From positions 1 to 36,044 of the forward strand of contig CALMFL010000310.1 of NCBI GenBank assembly GCA_937862595.1: a stretch of DNA of 36,044 bases, read 5' to 3'. The notes below the pieces were generated by a model, which saw only the letters and a list, made by a program, of their open reading frames with translations, did not search any database and had not been told where the DNA came from. The stretch's first letter is position 1, and every line of letters starts with the position of its first letter. This DNA comes from an uncultured Fidelibacterota bacterium (GTDB lineage: Bacteria > Fidelibacterota > Fidelibacteria > Fidelibacterales > Fidelibacteraceae). The translations under genes were made by a program, and so were the position numbers. This document shows, piece by piece, positions 14,499-28,670 of the stretch.

Positions 14499-17477
14499 TC
14501 ATTGTTTGTTGAAAATCGCGATCGCCTTCCCGGTTTTCCCATCCATTTTTACCGTAATGGGCCGGGTGGAATGAAGGTGTTTGAAGTAGGTGTGCCTGCC
14601 GGTTTCTTTTATGTTATATAAGAGATCCCAGTTAATATAGTCTTCGTGACCTCCCCGGTACGGTATCGAAAAGTATCCGATCTTCATGGCGACGACATTG
14701 TGAAAGAAATGGGTTCCCTGGGAGGGGGGTATGTCAAAGCCTTTGATCCCGGATTCCACGATGACTCTCGCCTGGCTGATCTCCCCAAACTGGATCGGTA
14801 TGCCGAGAAAACGGTCTTTGCTCCCCCAGCGTCCCGGACCGATAAGAATATAATGGCGGTCCTCTTCTTTCATTTTCTGGTTGATCGCGCTTAACTCGGT
14901 TTGAATATTCAGCGTTTCAATCGTTGAGAACAATTCCGGCGGACACCAGATGATATCGTGAATATCACGTATTTCTCCGTTTCCCATGCCTTTTTCGGTA
15001 TATAATATTATATCGTTCGTATCATAGCTCTTCTTTTCAACAAGCGTATTGCTGCTGGAAACGGCAAGCGGGCGGATCTGAAGTAAATAAAATATCGGAT
15101 TGTTATCCGTTTTATCCACCCGGTTAAGATCCAGCGCAAATTCGATCTCGACCGGCATTCCCATGGCCGCCTCTCCGATCTCAAGAAGGCGTTTGATGAT
15201 ATTGCTGAGCGGATAGTGTCCGTATTTCAAGATATTGTCAAAGGTCACAATGCGCGGTCCTTTTTGATCCAGTCCGGGCAGGATGCGGTTATTCTCATAA
15301 TCAAAGACGGAGGCGATGTGCGGCAGACGTCCGTGTTCTTCTGCTGTGGAAATCGGCAATTTCACAAGGGTTGAGGATTCCGTCCCATATAATCCCATTT
15401 TATTGCTGGTTAGGTCCAGTGCGTAAAATTCCCGCTGTGTCGCTGACAGCATCTCTCCCATCGACATGAGATAAACCTTGGGGTGCTCCGGGCTGAATCG
15501 AAAAACATTGCCGCCTTCGATCACCATTTTCCCAAGACCCACGGCAAGGGAGGCCATCCCGTCCGTGTGTTTTTGCTTGTCAATGGGATAGAAATTGTAC
15601 GATTGCGCAACGCCGCTGATATGGGGATAATAATAGTTGTCGTTCCGGGTGCCGACGACCTCCTGAATGATCACGGCCATTTTTTCTTCGTCCACCTGGT
15701 GGCCGATATGTTCAATATATTGCTGTGTTCCGACGCTGTATGCAGAAGCGTAGATCAGCTTGATCGCATCCATCAGTTGCTTTTTTCGCTCCGCGATGTC
15801 GGGGTCATTGTTTGCGAGCATGTAGGTCCGATAGATTCCCGCGAAGGGCTGAGAATAGCTGTCCTCCAAAAGGGAGGAGGAACGAACCGCCAGGGGATAG
15901 TGGATTCTCTCAAGAAGACGTTCGAGCTTTCGCTCAAGTGATTCGGAGAGCGAGCCTTCCAGAAACACCCGGTCGATGTCCCCGTCCTCCATCTCTTCAT
16001 TGATTTTTCTGTCGATCCGGTTTTGTTCTATGAACGCGTCATATTCGTTGATGCCGATCGCCGCCGTGTTCGGTAACCGGATGCTCACGCCCTCGAATAT
16101 CTGATCGGGGTCCATTCGCGTTAACAGGGTGTTCAGGAACGCCAGACCACGGCCCTTGCCCCCAAGCGACCCTTCGGAAAGCAGAATGATCTCGTCTTCC
16201 TCGGGGAGTGAATACTGGTGAAATTTGATGATCTCACCGCGGTTCCGTTTCTTCTGTATGTCAAGAACGCGGGCCACAAGATAGTTTCTCATGTCTTCCG
16301 GGGTATCAAAATCCTTCGTTTTCATTCGCCGGATATTCCGTGCAAGCTCGATCTCGCCTCGCGCCATCAGCCAGGCGCTGAAATGATTTTTCTCGGCATG
16401 ATAGATCACGCTTTCCTGCGGCATGATCTGGAGTTTTTCCTCGAATTCCGCCAGATATCCGGCCCGATCGATAATATTTCCTTTTTTATCGCGGAAAATG
16501 AAATCCCCGAATCCCAGATTTTCGGTAATGAAGGTCCTTAGCCTGTGTAAAAGATGGCGGCTGTGCTTATGAAGAAAGGCGCAATTTGCCTTTCCCGCTT
16601 TTTCGGCATTGGACATATCCGAGGACATGATGACCGTGGCCAGATCGCTCCCTTCCTTTTGGATCTCTTCCAGCAGGTGCAGTCCCGCCTCTTTATCGTC
16701 AGCACCCGCTCGCGGGAAGCGCATATCCGTAAAGATCGCCACAACGTTATTTTTAAAACGGTGGAAAATATCTGTCGCTTCTTCATAATTTTTCGCCAAC
16801 ACCACCTTCGGCCGTACTCTCATGCGATAGCGCTTTTCTTTTTCGTTCAATTCTTCAATGATCAAATGCTGGGTTTGCTTCATGATCTCTTCATACAGCA
16901 AGGGCATGAACATGGAATAAAAATGCGGAGAATCTTCGACCAGCAGGATAACCCGAACGAGTCCGATTCGCGTATCGCGGACAATGTTTTTTTTATCTTC
17001 CGTGGATTTAATGATCGCAAGAAAAAGATTGGCGTCGCCCCGCCAGACAAAGATATCGTCAAAATTCATCCCGGCTTCCGAACGTTCTTCAACAATGCTC
17101 AAATCCGCCATCGAAGTCAGCAGCAAAACAACGGGCAGCCCTTTCTTGTTGTCGCGTACGTGCCGCAGCACATCAAAAGGACTGACCTTTCCGCTGTGAA
17201 GCGTGGTAATAACAAGATCGTATTCGTTTGTATTTATTAGATTTATAGCTAATTCACCGGTGGGGGCGGCCTCGATCTCGGGAGGCGAGGAAAGGTTCAG
17301 TTCCATATATTCGCCAAACACCTGTTCTCCCAACAGGGCGTCCCGCTCGAACACAAAAGCATCGTAGATCGTGGAAATGAGCAAAATGCGCTTCACGCGG
17401 AATTGCATCAGCTTGCGAAATACATCGTCTCCATATTTGTACTTATTATAGTAATCTATAATGTCAAACTCTTTCAT
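14499..17477 (-). CDS. Receiver-domain protein fused to a PEP synthase/PPDK N-terminal (ATP-grasp-like) domain
   Basis: 992 aa from ATG 17477 (the ORF-track start at 17486 is TTG). Two receiver-like segments, then LSEGSLGGKGRGLAFLNTL, LAVRSSSLLEDSYSQPFAGIYRTYM, PVEIEFALDL...FYLLQIRPL as in PEP synthase/PPDK N-terminal domains. ATGA overlap with dapF. Confidence 0.8.
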   Translation of the reverse strand: MKEFDIIDYYNKYKYGDDVFRKLMQFRVKRILLISTIYDAFVFERDALLGEQVFGEYMELNLSSPPEIEAAPTGELAINLINTNEYDLVITTLHSGKVSPFDVLRHVRDNKKGLPVVLLLTSMADLSIVEERSEAGMNFDDIFVWRGDANLFLAIIKSTEDKKNIVRDTRIGLVRVILLVEDSPHFYSMFMPLLYEEIMKQTQHLIIEELNEKEKRYRMRVRPKVVLAKNYEEATDIFHRFKNNVVAIFTDMRFPRAGADDKEAGLHLLEEIQKEGSDLATVIMSSDMSNAEKAGKANCAFLHKHSRHLLHRLRTFITENLGFGDFIFRDKKGNIIDRAGYLAEFEEKLQIMPQESVIYHAEKNHFSAWLMARGEIELARNIRRMKTKDFDTPEDMRNYLVARVLDIQKKRNRGEIIKFHQYSLPEEDEIILLSEGSLGGKGRGLAFLNTLLTRMDPDQIFEGVSIRLPNTAAIGINEYDAFIEQNRIDRKINEEMEDGDIDRVFLEGSLSESLERKLERLLERIHYPLAVRSSSLLEDSYSQPFAGIYRTYMLANNDPDIAERKKQLMDAIKLIYASAYSVGTQQYIEHIGHQVDEEKMAVIIQEVVGTRNDNYYYPHISGVAQSYNFYPIDKQKHTDGMASLAVGLGKMVIEGGNVFRFSPEHPKVYLMSMGEMLSATQREFYALDLTSNKMGLYGTESSTLVKLPISTAEEHGRLPHIASVFDYENNRILPGLDQKGPRIVTFDNILKYGHYPLSNIIKRLLEIGEAAMGMPVEIEFALDLNRVDKTDNNPIFYLLQIRPLAVSSSNTLVEKKSYDTNDIILYTEKGMGNGEIRDIHDIIWCPPELFSTIETLNIQTELSAINQKMKEEDRHYILIGPGRWGSKDRFLGIPIQFGEISQARVIVESGIKGFDIPPSQGTHFFHNVVAMKIGYFSIPYRGGHEDYINWDLLYNIKETGRHTYFKHLHSTRPITVKMDGKTGKAIAIFNKQ

Positions 17478-18262
17478 AAAGCCCAAACCCCTTTAAAAAC
17501 AAACGCCGCGGGTCCTTCGAGCCAAATATTTTCATAGCGCTCGCCGCCACGAAATTCAAACCGAACCTTGAGCGTCCCACCGAGCGCATTTATCGTATAC
17601 GCTTCCCGGAGCTTGCCGTGATGGTGGTGCACGATCGCAGCGGCGATCGAACCCGTACCGCAGGCCAGCGTCTCATTTTCCACGCCGCGTTCATAGGTTC
17701 TGATCGAGATCGTTCCGTCTTTTTCATCGTGAATAAAATTCACGTTACAGCCGTCCGGAGCGTAGGAACTGCGTTCTCTTATCGCTTTCCCGCGACGGTA
17801 TACGTCCATATCCACAAGTTTATCCACATATTCAACATGGTGCAGAGAACCCGTGTCCACGGCGTATCCCTTTCCCGTTTTACGGATGCCGTTAACGTTT
17901 TTCATTTTCAGCGCGATCCGCCCGTCAGGAATAAAAAAGGCTTCGTGGTCTCCGTCGACAGCACTAAAATCAACCCGGGATAAGCCGTCAACCATTCCCA
18001 GCTCGCGAGTGAAGGCAACGATGCACCGCCCTCCGTTTCCGCACATCGTCCCCTCATATCCGTCGGAGTTATAATAGGCCATGTGAAAAATTTTATCACT
18101 GGAATTTTGCAGAAGCATCAGGCCGTCCGCACCGACCCCCGTGTGGCGGTCGCAAAGACGGCGAATCGTTTCGTGGTCCTTGCCCGGGAAGGATCCCTTG
18201 CGGTCGTCAATCAGGATAAAGTCATTTCCCGCACCGTGATACTTGGAAAAAGACAGGTTCAT
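17474..18262 (-). CDS. dapF: Diaminopimelate epimerase
   Basis: FSKYHGAGNDFILIDDR, CDRHTGVGADGLMLL, MCGNGGRCIVAFT, YERGVENETLACGTGSIAAAI. Confidence 0.95.
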   Translation of the reverse strand: MNLSFSKYHGAGNDFILIDDRKGSFPGKDHETIRRLCDRHTGVGADGLMLLQNSSDKIFHMAYYNSDGYEGTMCGNGGRCIVAFTRELGMVDGLSRVDFSAVDGDHEAFFIPDGRIALKMKNVNGIRKTGKGYAVDTGSLHHVEYVDKLVDMDVYRRGKAIRERSSYAPDGCNVNFIHDEKDGTISIRTYERGVENETLACGTGSIAAAIVHHHHGKLREAYTINALGGTLKVRFEFRGGERYENIWLEGPAAFVFKGVWAL

Positions 18263-18333: not shown

Positions 18334-18349
18334 TGTTTCACGTGAAACA
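18334..18349. other. parS: parS centromere site 1 (TGTTTCACGTGAAACA)
   Basis: Exact 16-bp palindrome identical to the classical chromosomal parS core; in the dapF/mfd divergent intergenic region. Confidence 0.9.
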
Positions 18350-18408: not shown

Positions 18409-21400
18409 ATGACAGAAATGAACAATAAAATTGTTTCACGTGAAACATCCGATATCGGGGAAATTCTGTGTCTCTTTCGGGAGGACCCCGCATTTATGTC
18501 GGCCTTCTCTCTTTTGCGTCATCGTGAATCCCTGGTTCTGAATACTTCGAATCCTTCCTTTCTTCTTTTCTGGCTGCGGGTTGCGCGTGAAAAAGGTTAT
18601 CTTCCGGTCGTTTTGACCGGCACCGAACTTGAGGGGGAGTCCTTTTACGCGGATGCGCTTGCGTTCTTCCGGGATGAAAAGATCGCGTGGCTGCCTCTTT
18701 ATGATACCGGGGCTTCTCCCGGAGGCCGTTCGGGCATAGAAAATCACGTCAGCCGCTTCCTAGACGATCTTTACAGGGATAATCTCGAGCTTGTCATTTC
18801 TTCACGGCAGGTTTTCGGCTTCTCGGTTCCGGACCAAAAGGGCTTGCGCGAACACATGCTTCACCTGAGGGCCGGAGAACATGTATCTTTCTCCGGGCTG
18901 CCGCCCCGCCTGGCCGAGATGGGTTATCAGCGTGCGGATATTGTTGAATACTGCGGAGAATTCACGGTCCGGGGCGGGATCGTCGACATCTATCCCTATG
19001 GTGAAACGTACCCTCTTCGGCTGGAATTTTTCGGGGATACCCTGGAGTCGCTGCGGCGTTTTAACCCCAACGATCAGATCACCTTCGAATCCTGTGAAAA
19101 TGCGCAGGTGCGGCCGGCGTCATTTTCAGCCTTTTCCCGGTCGACCGTTGCGGACATCCTGCCGGCCAATACGCTTGTCATTTCCCTGGCGGACGATAAA
19201 CATCCGGATAACGAGCCGGCCTATGTTCCCGGCCTTGCTTTCAAACAGGTGGTCTTTAACGGAAGTGCCGTCGGTTCCGATGTCGTCCTGCCGGTCCTCG
19301 CCGCGGAGGTGCCGCGGGATGTGAACGACAGTTCCTGGTATGAAAACCTGCTTTCTCAGAAGAAACGCCTTTTTGTGTTTTCGGAACATGAGCTTGTTCG
19401 GGCTTCGTTGTTTGAAAAACTGGGGGATCACGCCGCCTACGTAAACGCCAATGTGCGCTTCGGATTTCACTATAAACCCCTTGATCTGATCTTGCTTTCG
19501 GGACGTCAGTTCTATCACAAGGAGCGCTATGCCAATCCGAACAGCCGGTTTATCCCCGAACAATCAACGCGTGTGGACTCGGTGGAATCGCTGCGGTACG
19601 GCGACGTGGTTGTTCATGTTGATTACGGGGTCGGCATATACCGCGGCATCGAAATGCTGGATTTCCGCGGGATCCGCCAGGAATCCATGGTGATCGAGTA
19701 CCAAAACCGGGATAAAGTGTTCGTTCCTATCCGGTTTATGAACAAGATCTTTCGCTACAGTTCGGATAACGCTTCTCACGTTGCCATTGATCAGATCGGC
19801 AGTTCGCGATGGGAACAGGCAAAAGCAACGACCCGCAAACACCTCCGGCAGGCTGCTTTCGACCTGATCTCCCTCTATCGCGACCGCAAACAGCTTCCGG
19901 GTATTTCATTTGAAAAAGATACGCCGGACTTGCTTCGCCTTGAAGCCTCGTTTCCTTATGAAGAGACGCGTGATCAGCGCATTGCGATCAATGAAATAAC
20001 CGCCGATATGGAGAAACCGGGCATTATGGACCGCCTGATCTGCGGCGATGTCGGTTTCGGAAAAACCGAGGTCGCTATCCGTGCGGCGTTCAAAGCGGTG
20101 TACTCCGGAAAGCAGGTCGCCGTTCTTGTCCCGACAACGGTTTTGTGTTTTCAGCATTACGAATCCTTTCGTGAACGGTTGTCCTCTTTCGGTATCCGGG
20201 TCGATCACGTCAACCGTTTTGTTTCGGGCGCCCGGCTGGTCAAGCTGATGCACGATCTTGCCGCAGGTGCGATCGACGTCCTTGTCGGCACCCATAAAAT
20301 ATTATCTAACACGATGTTATTTAAGGACTTGGGTTTACTTGTGATAGATGAAGAGCATCGTTTCGGGGTCAACCATAAAGAGAAGATCCAAAACATGAAA
20401 CGCCGCGTGGACGTGATCACGCTGACCGCAACGCCGATCCCTAGGACGCTTCAGCTTGCGCTGGCGGGATTGCGGGATATCACCAAGATCGACACGCCGC
20501 CCAAAGAGCGTCTTCCCATATCCACGAAGATCATTTACTGGAAGGATGAAGATATCCGGATTGCCATTGGCCGTGAACTCGAACGCAACGGGCAGGTTTT
20601 CATACTGAACAACAATATTTCAGAACTGCCGGTGATGCGGGATAAAATAGCCGCTCTTTTCCCGGGCAGTACGGTCCGCTATGCACACGGCAAAATGCAC
20701 GGACCGGAACTTGAAAAAACCTTGCTTGATTTTCATCATCACCGTTTTGACATTCTCATTTCGACGACCATCATTGAATCCGGCATTGACGTACCCAATG
20801 CGAATACGCTGATCGTGCTGAATGCCCACACCTTTGGTCTTTCCCAATTGTATCAGATCCGCGGGCGTGTCGGACGGTCGTATAAAAAGGCTTTCGCCTA
20901 TCTTGTGATCCCGCGCGGAAAACATGTCAATCCGGTCGCCATGAAGCGTCTGCAGACACTTGAATATTACACCGACCTGGGGTCGGGATACCAGATCGCC
21001 ATGCGCGATCTTGAGATCCGGGGTGCCGGCTCGCTGTTCGGCGTTGAACAAAGCGGTCATATCAATCGTTTTGGATTTGCCTATTATAATCGGATGTTCT
21101 CGGAAGAGGTGGCGGCCGTCAAATCCGGAAAGCAAACATCCCTCCCGGCGGGGGCCGAGAGTCCGGATATTCAGCTGTCGCATCCCGCCTATCTTCCCGA
21201 AACATATATTGACAATAAAGATATCCGCATTGCGTTTTACCGCGAACTGAGCGACGCGCTCAACGACCCCGGTGAGCGTAAAAAAAGCCTGCAGCGCATT
21301 GAACATCTTGAGGTTGCCTGCCGGGATCGTTTCGGCCCGCTTCCGCCCGAAGCCGAAAACCTGTTTCACGACGCACGGCTGGCTCACTGGCTCTCGGCGT

Positions 21401-23382: not shown

Positions 23383-24143
23383 AATATCTCTTCCTTTTCC
23401 TCTCGGCCATGATCTTCATTGCCGCCTGCGGCCGCGTTGTCTTTTCGGCAGATCCCTGCGTTGCGCGTGTCAATTTCCACGTTCTTCGTCTTTCCGCTAT
23501 CCGTTCGTCCCTCGGTCCGGACGCCACTGCCGAAGAACAAAAGCGCTTCGCCGAACAGTGGGCCGACCAGAAGGTCCTTTACCTGAATGCAAAAAAACAT
23601 TTTCGTCTCGATTCCGGAATGCGGGAACAGCTCCGCAGCTATAAGGAGGACTTGCTGATCGCACGTTACAACGACGCGTTTGTGCGTCAGAAAATATTCA
23701 TTAGTGAAAATGACGTGCTGAACTATTATCAGAAACACCGCGGTGAATTCACGGCGGACCGGCGCGCCGTTTTTGCGCAGGTGTATACCTGCGCTGATCC
23801 TGAAACCGCACATGATATTTTGAATGCCTTAAAAAAAGAAAGCCGCGGCGCGGTTCAGCCGGATTTGCGGCTGTTGCGGGAAGGGGAATGTGTTGAAAAC
23901 ATCGACGTGGCGCTCTTCGCCAAAAACAACCCTTCTCTCGTCGGACCCATCCATTCCGGGGGTATCTATTATGTTATCTCTGTGCTTGAACGCTATGAGC
24001 GCAATTCAACGTTTCGCGTGGAACATGTTCGAGAGGATATCATACAAAGGCTGCACATTGAGGAATACATAAAAACCTCGCAACAAAAATTAAAAGACCT
24101 AAAGGAACGCTTTAATGTCAAAATTTTCGAAATTCCTGCTTAG
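23367..24143 (+). CDS. SurA/parvulin-associated lipoprotein; probable non-AUG (ATT) start
   Basis: Track ORF begins at ATG 23409 inside the signal peptide. Extending in frame to ATT 23367 gives (M)IHKIKYLFLFLSAMIFIAAC, a complete lipoprotein signal, with GAGG at 23355-23358. SurA-N-like helical region follows. Confidence 0.65.
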   Translation: MIHKIKYLFLFLSAMIFIAACGRVVFSADPCVARVNFHVLRLSAIRSSLGPDATAEEQKRFAEQWADQKVLYLNAKKHFRLDSGMREQLRSYKEDLLIARYNDAFVRQKIFISENDVLNYYQKHRGEFTADRRAVFAQVYTCADPETAHDILNALKKESRGAVQPDLRLLREGECVENIDVALFAKNNPSLVGPIHSGGIYYVISVLERYERNSTFRVEHVREDIIQRLHIEEYIKTSQQKLKDLKERFNVKIFEIPA

Positions 24144-25401
24144 CGCAGCCTTGCTGACGCTTGCTACACTGCTTCCCGCACAGCAGATGATCGACGGAAT
24201 TGCCGCGATCGTGGGTGAAGATATTATCCTGTATTCCGAAATGAACCAGTATGCCTTTGAGATCGCACAGCAGAACGGGCTGGACATACTCAAGAACGAG
24301 CGGGCGTTCGCGGAAATCCAGAAGCAGGCTTTGCGTTCCATTATTGACTCAAAGATCCTGCTGCTTCAGGCGGAAGCCGATTCGATCGAGATCAACGAGC
24401 GTAACGTCCAGGCGACGCTGGAACAGCAGATCCTGCAGTATGTGCAAATGGCCGGCTCGGAAGAGACCCTTGAAATGTATTTTGACATGCCGATGAAAAA
24501 GATCCGGGAATTGCTGTATGAGCGCATTAAAAGCTCCATGATATCCCAGCAGCTTCAAAGCGAGAAATTCGCCAAAATTAAAATATCCCGCCCCGAAGTG
24601 GTCGATTTTTTTGAGTCACACCGTGATTCGCTGCCCGACCTTCCCGAGCGAATTGATGTGGACCATATTCTCATAACCGAAAAGCCCTCGCCCGAATCGC
24701 GGAAGAAAACCCTGGACGTGCTTTTTCAGATACGGGACGATATTGTTTCCGGCAAGATCGCGTTTGAAGATGCCGCCCGCGAATATTCTCAGGATCCCGG
24801 TTCCGCCGAAGAGGGCGGAGATCTTGGATTTGTATCCAAAGGAACCTTTGTTCCTGAGTTTGAAAAGACCGCCTTCGGCTTGAGCGCCGGGGAAATATCC
24901 GAGCCGGTGGAAACACAATTCGGTTTTCATCTTATCCAACTGTTGGAAAAGCGCGGGGAGCTCATTCACACCCGACATATTCTGATCCCCATCACCACCT
25001 CCGAAGCAGACAATCAATATGTTATAAACATGTTATCCACAATTCGCGACAGCCTCCTTTCCGGGGGTGATTTTACGGTATTTGCCCGCAAATACAGCGA
25101 GGATCCGGACGTTTCGGCCAACGGCGGGCATCTGGGTGTGTTTGCGCTTGACAATCTTCAGATCCCGGAATTCGGCGACGTTGCAAAAACACTTATGCCC
25201 GGAGAAATTTCCGAGCCTTTTCTTTCTCCCTATGGATTTCATATCTTGAAATTAAACAAGTATTTACCTTCGGAAAAAATAACCCTTAAAAGCCATTATC
25301 CCACTCTTGAAAATATGGCGCTTAATCAAAAACAATCCGCTTTTTGGGATTCCTGGATGGATAAACTTTACGGAACATACTATGTGGAGATCAAATTCTG
25401 A
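24115..25401 (+). CDS. SurA-like periplasmic peptidyl-prolyl isomerase with two PpiC domains
   Basis: Signal peptide MSKFSKFLLSAALLTLATLLPAQQ; MIDGIAAIVGEDIILYSEM typical of SurA; DVDHILI...GGDLGFVSKGTFVPEFEKTAFGLSAGEISEPVETQFGFHLIQLLEKR and HTRHILI...GGHLGVF...PYGFHILKLNKY. Confidence 0.9.
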   Translation: MSKFSKFLLSAALLTLATLLPAQQMIDGIAAIVGEDIILYSEMNQYAFEIAQQNGLDILKNERAFAEIQKQALRSIIDSKILLLQAEADSIEINERNVQATLEQQILQYVQMAGSEETLEMYFDMPMKKIRELLYERIKSSMISQQLQSEKFAKIKISRPEVVDFFESHRDSLPDLPERIDVDHILITEKPSPESRKKTLDVLFQIRDDIVSGKIAFEDAAREYSQDPGSAEEGGDLGFVSKGTFVPEFEKTAFGLSAGEISEPVETQFGFHLIQLLEKRGELIHTRHILIPITTSEADNQYVINMLSTIRDSLLSGGDFTVFARKYSEDPDVSANGGHLGVFALDNLQIPEFGDVAKTLMPGEISEPFLSPYGFHILKLNKYLPSEKITLKSHYPTLENMALNQKQSAFWDSWMDKLYGTYYVEIKF

Positions 25402-25461
25402 ATAATGAACAATGTTTACGCCTTACCGCGTGCGCTGTTGTTTCTCCGTTCTTTCGTTATG

Positions 25462-25491
25462 TTATCCACATTTTCCACAATGTTTTCCACT
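25462..25491 (+). other. Tandem DnaA-box array within a candidate oriC (25402-25636)
   Basis: TTATCCACA (25462-25470, perfect), TTTTCCACA (25471-25479, 1 mismatch), TTTTCCACT (25483-25491, 2 mismatches), all same orientation, followed by AT-rich DNA up to dnaN. Confidence 0.6.
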
Positions 25492-25636
25492 TTATAAAAC
25501 AATCACAAATTACTTGTTTTAAGGGGGATTCGTGAGTTGTTCACGAAATTCACATGATTAAGAATTTTATTATGTGTTTTAAAGAAAAAGATATTAAATT
25601 AGTTACCGTAAATATTATTATTCTCAGAGGTGATAA

Positions 25637-26749
25637 ATGAAGTTTACCGTTTCAAAAGAAAAATTTTTTCATGTGTTGCAAAAGGTCTCCAACGTAACGC
25701 CGATACGTTCGACTTTACCCATACTCAGTTGCATTCTTTTTACCGTAAAAGATAACATTCTAAAAATGCGGTCTACCGATCTTGAGATCACCATGACGGC
25801 AAGCTGTCAGGTGAAAATGGAAGAAGAGGGGGCGATTGCCATTCCAAGCAAGATCATCAAGGAAATCACCGGCGAACTTCCCGATACCGACTTGTATTTT
25901 CATATTGAAGACGAACAGGTCATCATTACAACCGGCGTGGGCGGGGAATATAAGATCATGGGTTATCCCGCCATGGAATTTCCGACAGAACCGGTGGTTG
26001 ACGACAGTAAAATGGTTACCCTGCAGGCAGATAAATTTAAACGCATCGTTGATAAAACCGGTTTTGCCGTAAGCCGGGATGAAATGAAGGTTGCGCTGAA
26101 CGGTGTTCTTTTTCAATTTCTAAGCGCAGAATTACGTGCGGTTTCAACCGACGGACACCGCCTGGTGAAATATACCTTGAAAGAATTTCAGGGAGCCGAG
26201 GATATTAAAGACATTATTGTCCCCCCGAAATTTTTGAATTTATGCGTCGCCAGCATGCGAAACGTGGATTTTGTGACCCTGCGCATCGGAGCCAACCATG
26301 TCATGCTGGAGCTTGAGGACACCACGATCTATTCGCGCATTATCGAAGAAAGATTTCCGGACTATGAAAGCGTTATTCCGGCCGAGAACGACAAAAAGAT
26401 CCGTGTGAACATTGACGATCTGATGTCCGTCGTTAAGCGCGTCGGTATTTTCGCAAGCAAGAACACCCGGCAGATATCCTTGTCTTTTTCACAGAACAGC
26501 GCACTGATCAAAGCGGAAGACATTGAAACCGCTTCGACCGCAAAAGAAAGCATCGAGCTGGAATATCAGGGAGATAATTTTGTCATCGGATACAATTCGG
26601 ATTACCTTCGTGAAATGATCCGGCATATCGACGGCGACCGGGTGGAGATACATCTGAAAAATGCGTTGATGGCCGGACTTTTCTTCCCGACGGAACAGCT
26701 TCCCGATGAAGAAATCCTCTTCCTGCTGATGCCGATCCGCCTGATATAA
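25637..26749 (+). CDS. dnaN: DNA polymerase III subunit beta (sliding clamp)
   Basis: MKFTVSKEKFFHVLQKVSNVTPIRSTLPILSCILF, STDGHRLVKY, terminal LFLLMPIRL. Confidence 0.97.
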   Translation: MKFTVSKEKFFHVLQKVSNVTPIRSTLPILSCILFTVKDNILKMRSTDLEITMTASCQVKMEEEGAIAIPSKIIKEITGELPDTDLYFHIEDEQVIITTGVGGEYKIMGYPAMEFPTEPVVDDSKMVTLQADKFKRIVDKTGFAVSRDEMKVALNGVLFQFLSAELRAVSTDGHRLVKYTLKEFQGAEDIKDIIVPPKFLNLCVASMRNVDFVTLRIGANHVMLELEDTTIYSRIIEERFPDYESVIPAENDKKIRVNIDDLMSVVKRVGIFASKNTRQISLSFSQNSALIKAEDIETASTAKESIELEYQGDNFVIGYNSDYLREMIRHIDGDRVEIHLKNALMAGLFFPTEQLPDEEILFLLMPIRLI

Positions 26750-26774: not shown

Positions 26775-27458
26775 ATGAAACGTATCCTCATTGTGCTGAT
26801 ATTTGGACTTTTATTTTTCTCCTGCTCCTCGTTCGTGTATTATCCCAACGGTGCGAACGCGCCGCTTCTGACGGAGAAAGACGAAATGCAGCTTGCCCTG
26901 GGGATTAAGGGTTTTGGCGGCGATATCCGGTCGGCATACGCCCTCACAAACCATTTTGGGGTTCAGGCGAATTTGAACCTGTTGAATATTGCCAATACCG
27001 AACTCGGAACCGAATACCGGAACGGGAATTACTATGCGGAAGCGGCGGCCGGGTTTTTTACCCCGGTTCTGCCTTTTCTGGTGATCGAGGCGTATGCGGG
27101 CGGCGGCCTCGGGAGAACGTTCTCTCATAATCTGGATAACGGCTCAATGCGCACCACCGATTATGGAAAAATATATCTGCAGCAGGACATCGGACTCCGT
27201 ACGCGTTTTGTAGATTTCGGAATTGCCGTCCGGGAAGCCTTTGTTCACGCCTATATGACCAAACGAGACGGCGTTGATCAAAATGTGGACGAAATGGATA
27301 TTTTTATTGAACCTATCCTGTTCCTGTCGGTCGGTCCGGAAAAATTCAAGATCAACGCGCAGGCGGGCATTTCCGACGGCATGCTCTCCTGGATCAACAG
27401 CTACGCCCCGTTTATCTTTTCGCTGGGCGTCGAATCCAGGTTTTCGCTAAAAAAATAA
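26775..27458 (+). CDS. Small lipoprotein, possibly outer-membrane beta-barrel-like, uncharacterised
   Basis: Lipoprotein signal MKRILIVLIFGLLFFSC; alternating beta-like glycine/aromatic pattern, between dnaN and recF. Confidence 0.65.
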   Translation: MKRILIVLIFGLLFFSCSSFVYYPNGANAPLLTEKDEMQLALGIKGFGGDIRSAYALTNHFGVQANLNLLNIANTELGTEYRNGNYYAEAAAGFFTPVLPFLVIEAYAGGGLGRTFSHNLDNGSMRTTDYGKIYLQQDIGLRTRFVDFGIAVREAFVHAYMTKRDGVDQNVDEMDIFIEPILFLSVGPEKFKINAQAGISDGMLSWINSYAPFIFSLGVESRFSLKK

Positions 27459-27572: not shown

Positions 27573-28670
27573 ATGCTCAAAAATTTGACCGTTAAAAACT
27601 TCCGGGTTTTTAAGGAAATATCGGTAGCGTTTTCACCGGGGATCAATATTATTCTGGGAAAAAACGGCGTGGGCAAAACCTCTATCCTGGAGGCGGTCTA
27701 TTTTATTTGTTTCACCAAGTCATTCAAGGCACAGCAAGATGTCGACATGGTCAGGATCGGGGAGTCGCACTTTCAGATCCGAACGGAGTGGGAGGAAAGC
27801 CGGGTAAAGGAAGCTCAGGGAAATTTTCTCAAACAAAAAGGCAAACGCTTCATTTTTGATCGTGAGACCATGACCCGCATGGCCGACATTATCGGCATTT
27901 TCCCGTTGGTATTCCAGTCCCCCGAGGATTACCGCGTAACCGCGGGGCCCGGTATCGAACGGCGCATGTATTTCGATCGCTTCATATCCCAGATATCACG
28001 GCCCTACCTGCAGGACCTGATGCTTTACCGCCGTCTGGTGAAGAGCCGGAATGCGCACTTGAAAGAACTGGGCGAAAAGAAACAGTATCGCTATACCCGC
28101 CAGCTTGAGGCCTATGACGTTCAATTATCGCCGCCCATGTTCCGGATCGTTGCGATGCGCGAAGGGTATGCGGAGCTGTTCAACCGCCACCTCGGGGAGC
28201 TTTACGCCGGGGCGTTTTCCGACGGGACCCAGGCGCACATCGCCTACAAGCCGTCGATCGCGGCAAAAACAGAGGAAGAGTTCAGCGCCGCACACCTCGG
28301 GCAGACGCGGGAAAACATCGAAAAAGAGATCGTTTTACGCCGGACGCTTTGGGGACCGAACTACGATAAATACATCTTTTACCGGAACAGCACCCCGCTC
28401 ATCCATTACGCCTCCCAGGGGGAACACAAATTATGGATGACCCTTCTCAAGCTTGCGGAGGGAGAGATCATTTCCGAGATCCGGCAGGAAGAGCCGGTCT
28501 ATCTTTTTGACGACCTTTTCGCCGAACTCGACGTAAACAACAGCCGGCGCATTATCGAGCGGGTGATGCACAAAAAACAGGTTCTGATAACCACCACCGA
28601 CCTGAACGACCTGCGCCGTCACGGGATGGACGCGGAGGGCGGAAAACTGAACATTATAGAGATCTCGTAA
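27573..28670 (+). CDS. recF: DNA replication and repair protein RecF
   Basis: MLKNLTVKNFRVFKEISVAFSPGINIILGKNGVGKTSILEAVYFICFTKSF, LIHYASQGEHKLWMTLLKLAEGE, YLFDDLFAELD. Confidence 0.95.
   Translation: MLKNLTVKNFRVFKEISVAFSPGINIILGKNGVGKTSILEAVYFICFTKSFKAQQDVDMVRIGESHFQIRTEWEESRVKEAQGNFLKQKGKRFIFDRETMTRMADIIGIFPLVFQSPEDYRVTAGPGIERRMYFDRFISQISRPYLQDLMLYRRLVKSRNAHLKELGEKKQYRYTRQLEAYDVQLSPPMFRIVAMREGYAELFNRHLGELYAGAFSDGTQAHIAYKPSIAAKTEEEFSAAHLGQTRENIEKEIVLRRTLWGPNYDKYIFYRNSTPLIHYASQGEHKLWMTLLKLAEGEIISEIRQEEPVYLFDDLFAELDVNNSRRIIERVMHKKQVLITTTDLNDLRRHGMDAEGGKLNIIEIS

Follow-up and report, generated by a model that had tools for sequence, protein, structure and literature searches.

A probable chromosomal replication origin next to dnaN, with dnaA encoded elsewhere, in a Candidatus Neomarinimicrobiota genome

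We found that the intergenic region between surA and dnaN (25402..25636, 235 bp, unstranded) very likely constitutes the chromosomal replication origin of a Candidatus Neomarinimicrobiota bacterium or directly includes it. The region lies within the window (the whole 36,044-bp stretch analysed, which is contig C310 of the MAG referred to here as G000; 1.99 Mb, 360 contigs, 87% complete), and the proposal draws on the skew minimum at 25513, the weakest duplex and conservation in the genus. The gap shows DnaA boxes, a weak duplex and conservation, a GC-skew switch is found at dnaN in the genome of the window and in related genomes, and this switch supports the earlier note, which had regarded the region upstream of dnaN as a candidate origin or at least as origin-proximal.

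The gap interrupts a rightward run of genes comprising mfd, ppiC, a 244-aa gene, surA (a surA-like peptidyl-prolyl isomerase; 24115..25401, + strand; PF00639, PF13616), dnaN (DNA polymerase III beta subunit, the sliding clamp; 25637..26749, + strand; Pfam PF00712/PF02767/PF02768, TIGR00663), a 227-aa protein (26775..27458, + strand), recF (27573..28670, + strand; TIGR00611) and cdsA. These Pfam and TIGR matches confirmed that dnaN and then recF follow the gap, as had been read from the sequence. Leftward in the window mnmE, mnmG, an RRM-like protein (so labelled from a reading of its translation), a PPDK-like gene and dapF are listed, the last two being oriented leftward. The 227-aa protein between dnaN and recF matched none of the Pfam and NCBIfam profiles; it occupies the same place in congeners G001, G004 and G007.

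Three DnaA boxes, all in the same orientation (+ strand), were located in the gap: box 1 (TTATCCACA, 25462..25470), a perfect consensus with 94% mean pairwise identity across nine congeners; box 2 (TTTTCCACA, 25471..25479), which is unconserved in the genus (39% pairwise identity), its equivalent being box-like only in G006 and G009 among the congeners; and, separated from box 2 by an ATG, box 3 (TTTTCCACT, 25483..25491), which lies 21 bp from box 1 and is kept in position in 9/9 congeners (79% identity). The earlier description of three same-orientation boxes packed almost end to end therefore stands in its exact positions and orientation, but not for the middle box as a conserved element, and, judging from the genus alignment, the end-to-end look stems partly from this non-conserved box. 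A TTCACGAAATTCACA-type sequence is also conserved in that alignment at the edge of the AT-rich block (25537..25554, + strand), where TTGTTCACGAAATTCACA could be read as possible weak tandem boxes. The further perfect TTATCCACA noted previously at 25033-25041 is real, though it sits within the surA coding sequence.

The box-density scan that the earlier note had suggested revealed an excess at the gap: the window contains 6 copies of TTWTCCACA vs. 0.61 expected, two same-strand boxes within 30 bp arose in 0/300 first-order Markov simulations, and a same-strand TTWTCCACA pair within 30 bp is found at only 4 places in the 2.0-Mb assembly (1 in the dnaN gap, 2 at dnaA on contig C208 and 1 at dnaB on contig C167). 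The cluster at the dnaN gap, with three boxes in 30 bp of which two are conserved in the genus, is thus beyond chance. Box clusters upstream of dnaN occur in other families too, and 21-bp box pairs precede dnaN in G011, G034, G038 and G057, which belong to other genera and families. Conservation across the genus (nine congeners) and, for the boxes, the recurrence of 21-bp pairs in other families suggest that boxes 1 and 3, like the AT-rich block, have a function.

The strongly AT-rich stretch reported after the boxes proved to be the weakest duplex in the window. Across the 36 kb, the least stable windows of 60, 100, 150 and 235 bp start at 25562, 25546, 25491 and 25449, respectively, so that an easily melted AT-rich stretch adjoins the boxes at all scales from 60 to 235 bp, and the 60-bp window from 25562 is 85% AT. 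In the alignment of the gap, which comprised nine congeners, mean pairwise identity rises from 44% in the 5' spacer and 60% in the spacer after box 3 to 88% in the AT-rich block (25539..25600, unstranded), a candidate unwinding element and/or dnaN promoter with an invariant AAAAAGATATTAAATT core. A small leader ORF beginning at an ATG in this block and overlapping the dnaN start was considered and rejected, because the conservation extends to wobble positions and congeners do not maintain the reading frame. A sigma-70 promoter scan of the dnaN strand gave nothing above chance, and Rfam returned one sub-threshold match inside surA, which we took as chance. The search for DnaA-trios proposed in the earlier note, carried out on what we take to be the relevant strand, yielded none beyond background: no run of three canonical trios was found in the genus, and under a permissive published rule, for which the background is high (47% of positions pass in such AT-rich DNA), runs in the genome of the window reach 2 at most. 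The dnaN gap does not, then, carry at least three tandem trios within 16 bp of a box, and from its sequence we would file it as a predicted DnaA-type oriC of the dnaN-adjacent kind and not as a BUS origin.

The cumulative GC-skew analysis, which had also been suggested, placed the switch at dnaN. The raw cumulative minimum of the window falls at 25513, inside the surA-dnaN gap. For comparison we used 1.2 Mb from G015, a relative assembled as a single contig (2,788,509 bp), and 50-100 kb around dnaN in several other genomes. As gene orientation on its own shifts the balance of G vs. C, the raw change points of the other genomes are spread over the interval from dnaA to dnaN, and we therefore fitted an orientation-corrected model, with orientation-by-codon-position effects and one strand switch. 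When 13 genomes of the phylum were pooled, the log-likelihood gain was 279.4 at dnaN, 217.7 at -7.25 kb (parS) and 126.4 at -13.25 kb (the usual dnaA position), values that give relative support and no probabilities, as neighbouring sites are not independent. Pooling five genomes of the genus put the change point +250 bp from the dnaN start (support -500 to +2500), with gains of 28.1 at dnaN, 15.9 at -7.25 kb and 2.7 at -13.25 kb. The window alone is statistically weak after correction (gain 4.5, support -7750 to +10000), and the resolution is therefore supplied by the relatives. Best corrected points relative to dnaN were +250 in the genome of the window, 0 in G007, +2000 in G008 and G011, +250 in G029 and +500 in G034; others fell farther upstream (-2000 in G026, -1750 in G028, -5500 in G025), and G038 gave no corrected skew signal. 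For G015, the sampled skew is positive from 0 to ~1.05 Mb, mixed to ~1.4 Mb and mostly negative to ~2.78 Mb; its uncorrected minimum lies 405 bp into dnaN (448 kb around the origin), its corrected best point is +500 in one fit and +2000 (support -1500 to +2500) in another, and its gain is 72.1 at dnaN vs. 51.4 at dnaA. The window minimum, the pooled change point and G015 together place a GC-skew switch at the site, and the switch is at dnaN, not dnaA, in the genus of the window and in relatives from several families.

Box pairs alone are no mark of an origin, since they also precede dnaA and dnaB. A scan of ten congeneric genomes returned 28 paired-box places (vs. 2 in a reversed-pattern control), 12 at dnaA, 7 at dnaN, 5 at dnaB and 4 elsewhere, the dnaB upstream positions in relatives having been obtained by pattern search. 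In the genome of the window, two perfect boxes lie ~100 bp upstream of dnaB, the replicative helicase gene (G000:C167:2271-2291; locus L242 about 1501-1521), and the dnaB pair is also present in at least four congeners (G003, G005, G006 and G009). That 24 of the 28 places are upstream of dnaN, dnaA or dnaB resembles a DnaA regulon, the AAAAAGATATTAAATT core before dnaN is similar to the TTTTTGATATTAATTT carried by the dnaB leader and could be a promoter element, and DnaA boxes in E. coli are transcriptional sites (PMC11317965). DnaA probably regulates dnaA, dnaN and dnaB, and we therefore retain, as a rather unlikely alternative, that the boxes are an operator only, through which DnaA regulates dnaN-recF transcription (as maybe that of dnaA and dnaB), and that the origin is elsewhere within a few kb of dnaN. 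However, the skew switch falls at the dnaN operator rather than at that of dnaA, no DNA in the window is less stable than the AT-rich block, and the two roles are compatible, since the origin and the dnaN/dnaA promoter coincide in known bacteria. Among the three box clusters, skew marks only the one at dnaN as the origin, and the same sequence probably serves as a DnaA-responsive dnaN promoter as well.

The parS site that had been placed 7 kb away was borne out as two perfect copies of TGTTTCACGTGAAACA (18334..18349 and 18432..18447, unstranded), about -7.3 and -7.2 kb from dnaN, both between dapF and mfd and conserved in congeners; parS is near dnaN in most genomes examined. Uncorrected change points of several genomes, which fall between -4 and -10 kb, raised the alternative that replication starts at the parS/mfd-dapF divergence ~7.3 kb upstream of dnaN (around 18.3 kb), where genes diverge, mfd pointing rightward and dapF and the PPDK-like gene leftward, and where both parS sites are found. 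Once orientation was modelled, however, the gain there dropped (218 vs. 279 at dnaN in 13 genomes, 15.9 vs. 28.1 in the genus); moreover, only a single perfect box lies nearby in the window (17820) and the PPDK-dapF insertion is genus-specific, leaving this location very improbable. The leftward PPDK-like/dapF pair (14499-18262) lies between mnmG and mfd, opposing an otherwise rightward conserved block, and is missing from that position in G015, G023, G028 and G034. The parB gene is on a separate contig (C154); in G015, 472 kb separate it from dnaA.

Locating dnaA, as the earlier note had advised, showed that the single copy in the MAG is on contig C208 among unrelated neighbours, with an AhpC-like gene on one side and a gene without an assigned family, then an EamA transporter and UmuD/UmuC-like genes on the other; no dnaA was found upstream of dnaN within 25 kb in the window, 31 kb in G007 or 36 kb in G001. 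By a tally made by hand, dnaA and dnaN share a contig in 25 relatives, where they are divergent in every case and for the most part separated by 11-15 kb, with the block yidC-mnmE-mnmG-mfd-ppiC-surA between them running toward dnaN, and the phylum commonly has the order mfd-ppiC-surA-dnaN-recF. From this block order, surA-dnaN is therefore the ancestral arrangement, retained in most genomes examined, and the suggestion that a parvulin/SurA cluster had replaced the usual dnaA is not upheld, this adjacency being the phylum norm; judged by gene order, it is dnaA that has moved away from the distal end of the block, which is peculiar to the genus of the window. Four perfect TTATCCACA boxes with closely conserved spacing across the genus lie upstream of dnaA (L088:14040-14212, G000:C208), the first of which reaches into the listed dnaA ORF at its 5' end. 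Of the signs that the earlier note had held would count against an origin at dnaN, the stronger box cluster beside dnaA is thus present and the skew minimum there is not. That the origin travels with dnaA, at this four-box cluster, is extremely improbable and was rejected on skew: the dnaA contigs of the genus (22, 49, 40, 22 and 9 kb) carry one skew sign throughout, the fit is poorer with a switch at dnaA than with none, and, when the exact dnaA position was tested in relatives with dnaA 11-15 kb from dnaN, dnaN was preferred in 7/7 informative genomes.

Taking the surA-dnaN gap as the origin, we propose that DnaA, encoded elsewhere, would bind the same-orientation boxes at 25462-25491, spread toward dnaN and melt the AT-rich block, presumably at ~25539-25600, where the helicase would be loaded and from which forks would depart both ways; ParB bound at the pair of parS sites, 7 kb distant, may then help to segregate the new origins. 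Several findings speak against placing the origin here: besides the weak signal of the window alone, the more distant best points in G025, G026 and G028, the absent signal in G038, the box pairs at dnaA and dnaB and the missing DnaA-trios, the conserved boxes are few (two), and members of family f5 have a skew minimum at dnaN and no canonical box upstream of it. The f5 origin sequence may differ.

The rpmH-dnaA type of oriC is Pseudomonas-like, and the phylum resembles it in retaining the dnaA/yidC-mnmE-mnmG neighbourhood and parS, but its skew switches at the dnaN end of the block and not between dnaA and rpmH. A dnaN-adjacent oriC without dnaA is already known in cyanobacteria, where oriC usually adjoins dnaN with dnaA encoded elsewhere (PMC6323995, PMC4674748, PMC7198777), and where it is the GC-skew shift point in Synechococcus elongatus PCC 7942 and has three DnaA boxes in Cyanothece ATCC 51142 (PMC7198777, PMC4674748, PMC6323995). 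The gap is similar in lying beside dnaN (25637) with dnaA outside the neighbourhood (on C208), in having few boxes and an AT-rich stretch before dnaN, and in its skew shift. Unlike in cyanobacteria, the gene order here is surA-dnaN-recF, the phylum is another one, most of which keeps dnaA linked, divergent and 7-15 kb off, and the box type is mainly TTATCCACA, the best conserved, whereas that of cyanobacteria is TTTTCCACA, of which the gap holds a single, unconserved copy. In Bacillus subtilis the unwinding half, incC (dnaA-dnaN), is directly before dnaN (PMC6669920), and the gap is like this incC/BUS arrangement in having an unwinding region before dnaN, boxes of one orientation that lead into AT-rich DNA and a second cluster at the dnaA promoter (PMC6669920, PMC4447404); it is unlike it in that no DnaA-trios were detected and in that 13 kb of genes lie between the two clusters in the phylum, while in the genus of the window the clusters are on separate contigs. 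We tentatively suggest, as one possible history, a bipartite origin taken apart: the ancestor of the phylum would have had box clusters at dnaA and dnaN flanking the conserved 13-kb block and fired at the dnaN side, and the dnaA cluster would have moved to another chromosomal site in the genus of the window, where the origin would work without its dnaA half and without DnaA-trios.

Our literature search found no published Marinimicrobia origin. An origin fixed at dnaN would correct the custom, followed for G015, of placing the start of such genomes at dnaA and would allow growth-rate estimates from metagenome coverage. It would also make this a second phylum, besides cyanobacteria, in which origin and dnaA are separated, and one that retains intermediates, dnaA being linked in most families and gone in the genus of the window.

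The f5 genomes are represented by G043 (C53 and C88), G052 (C11) and G036 (C14); a raw skew minimum lies near dnaN in G043 and G052, and in G043 dnaN-recF-gyrB are on a contig other than dnaA...surA, with the break at the surA-dnaN junction. Finally, G003:C187:5310-5344 and G005:C59:18903-18937 are identical to each other over 35 bp and carry two DnaA boxes (TTTTCCACT...TTGTCCACA).
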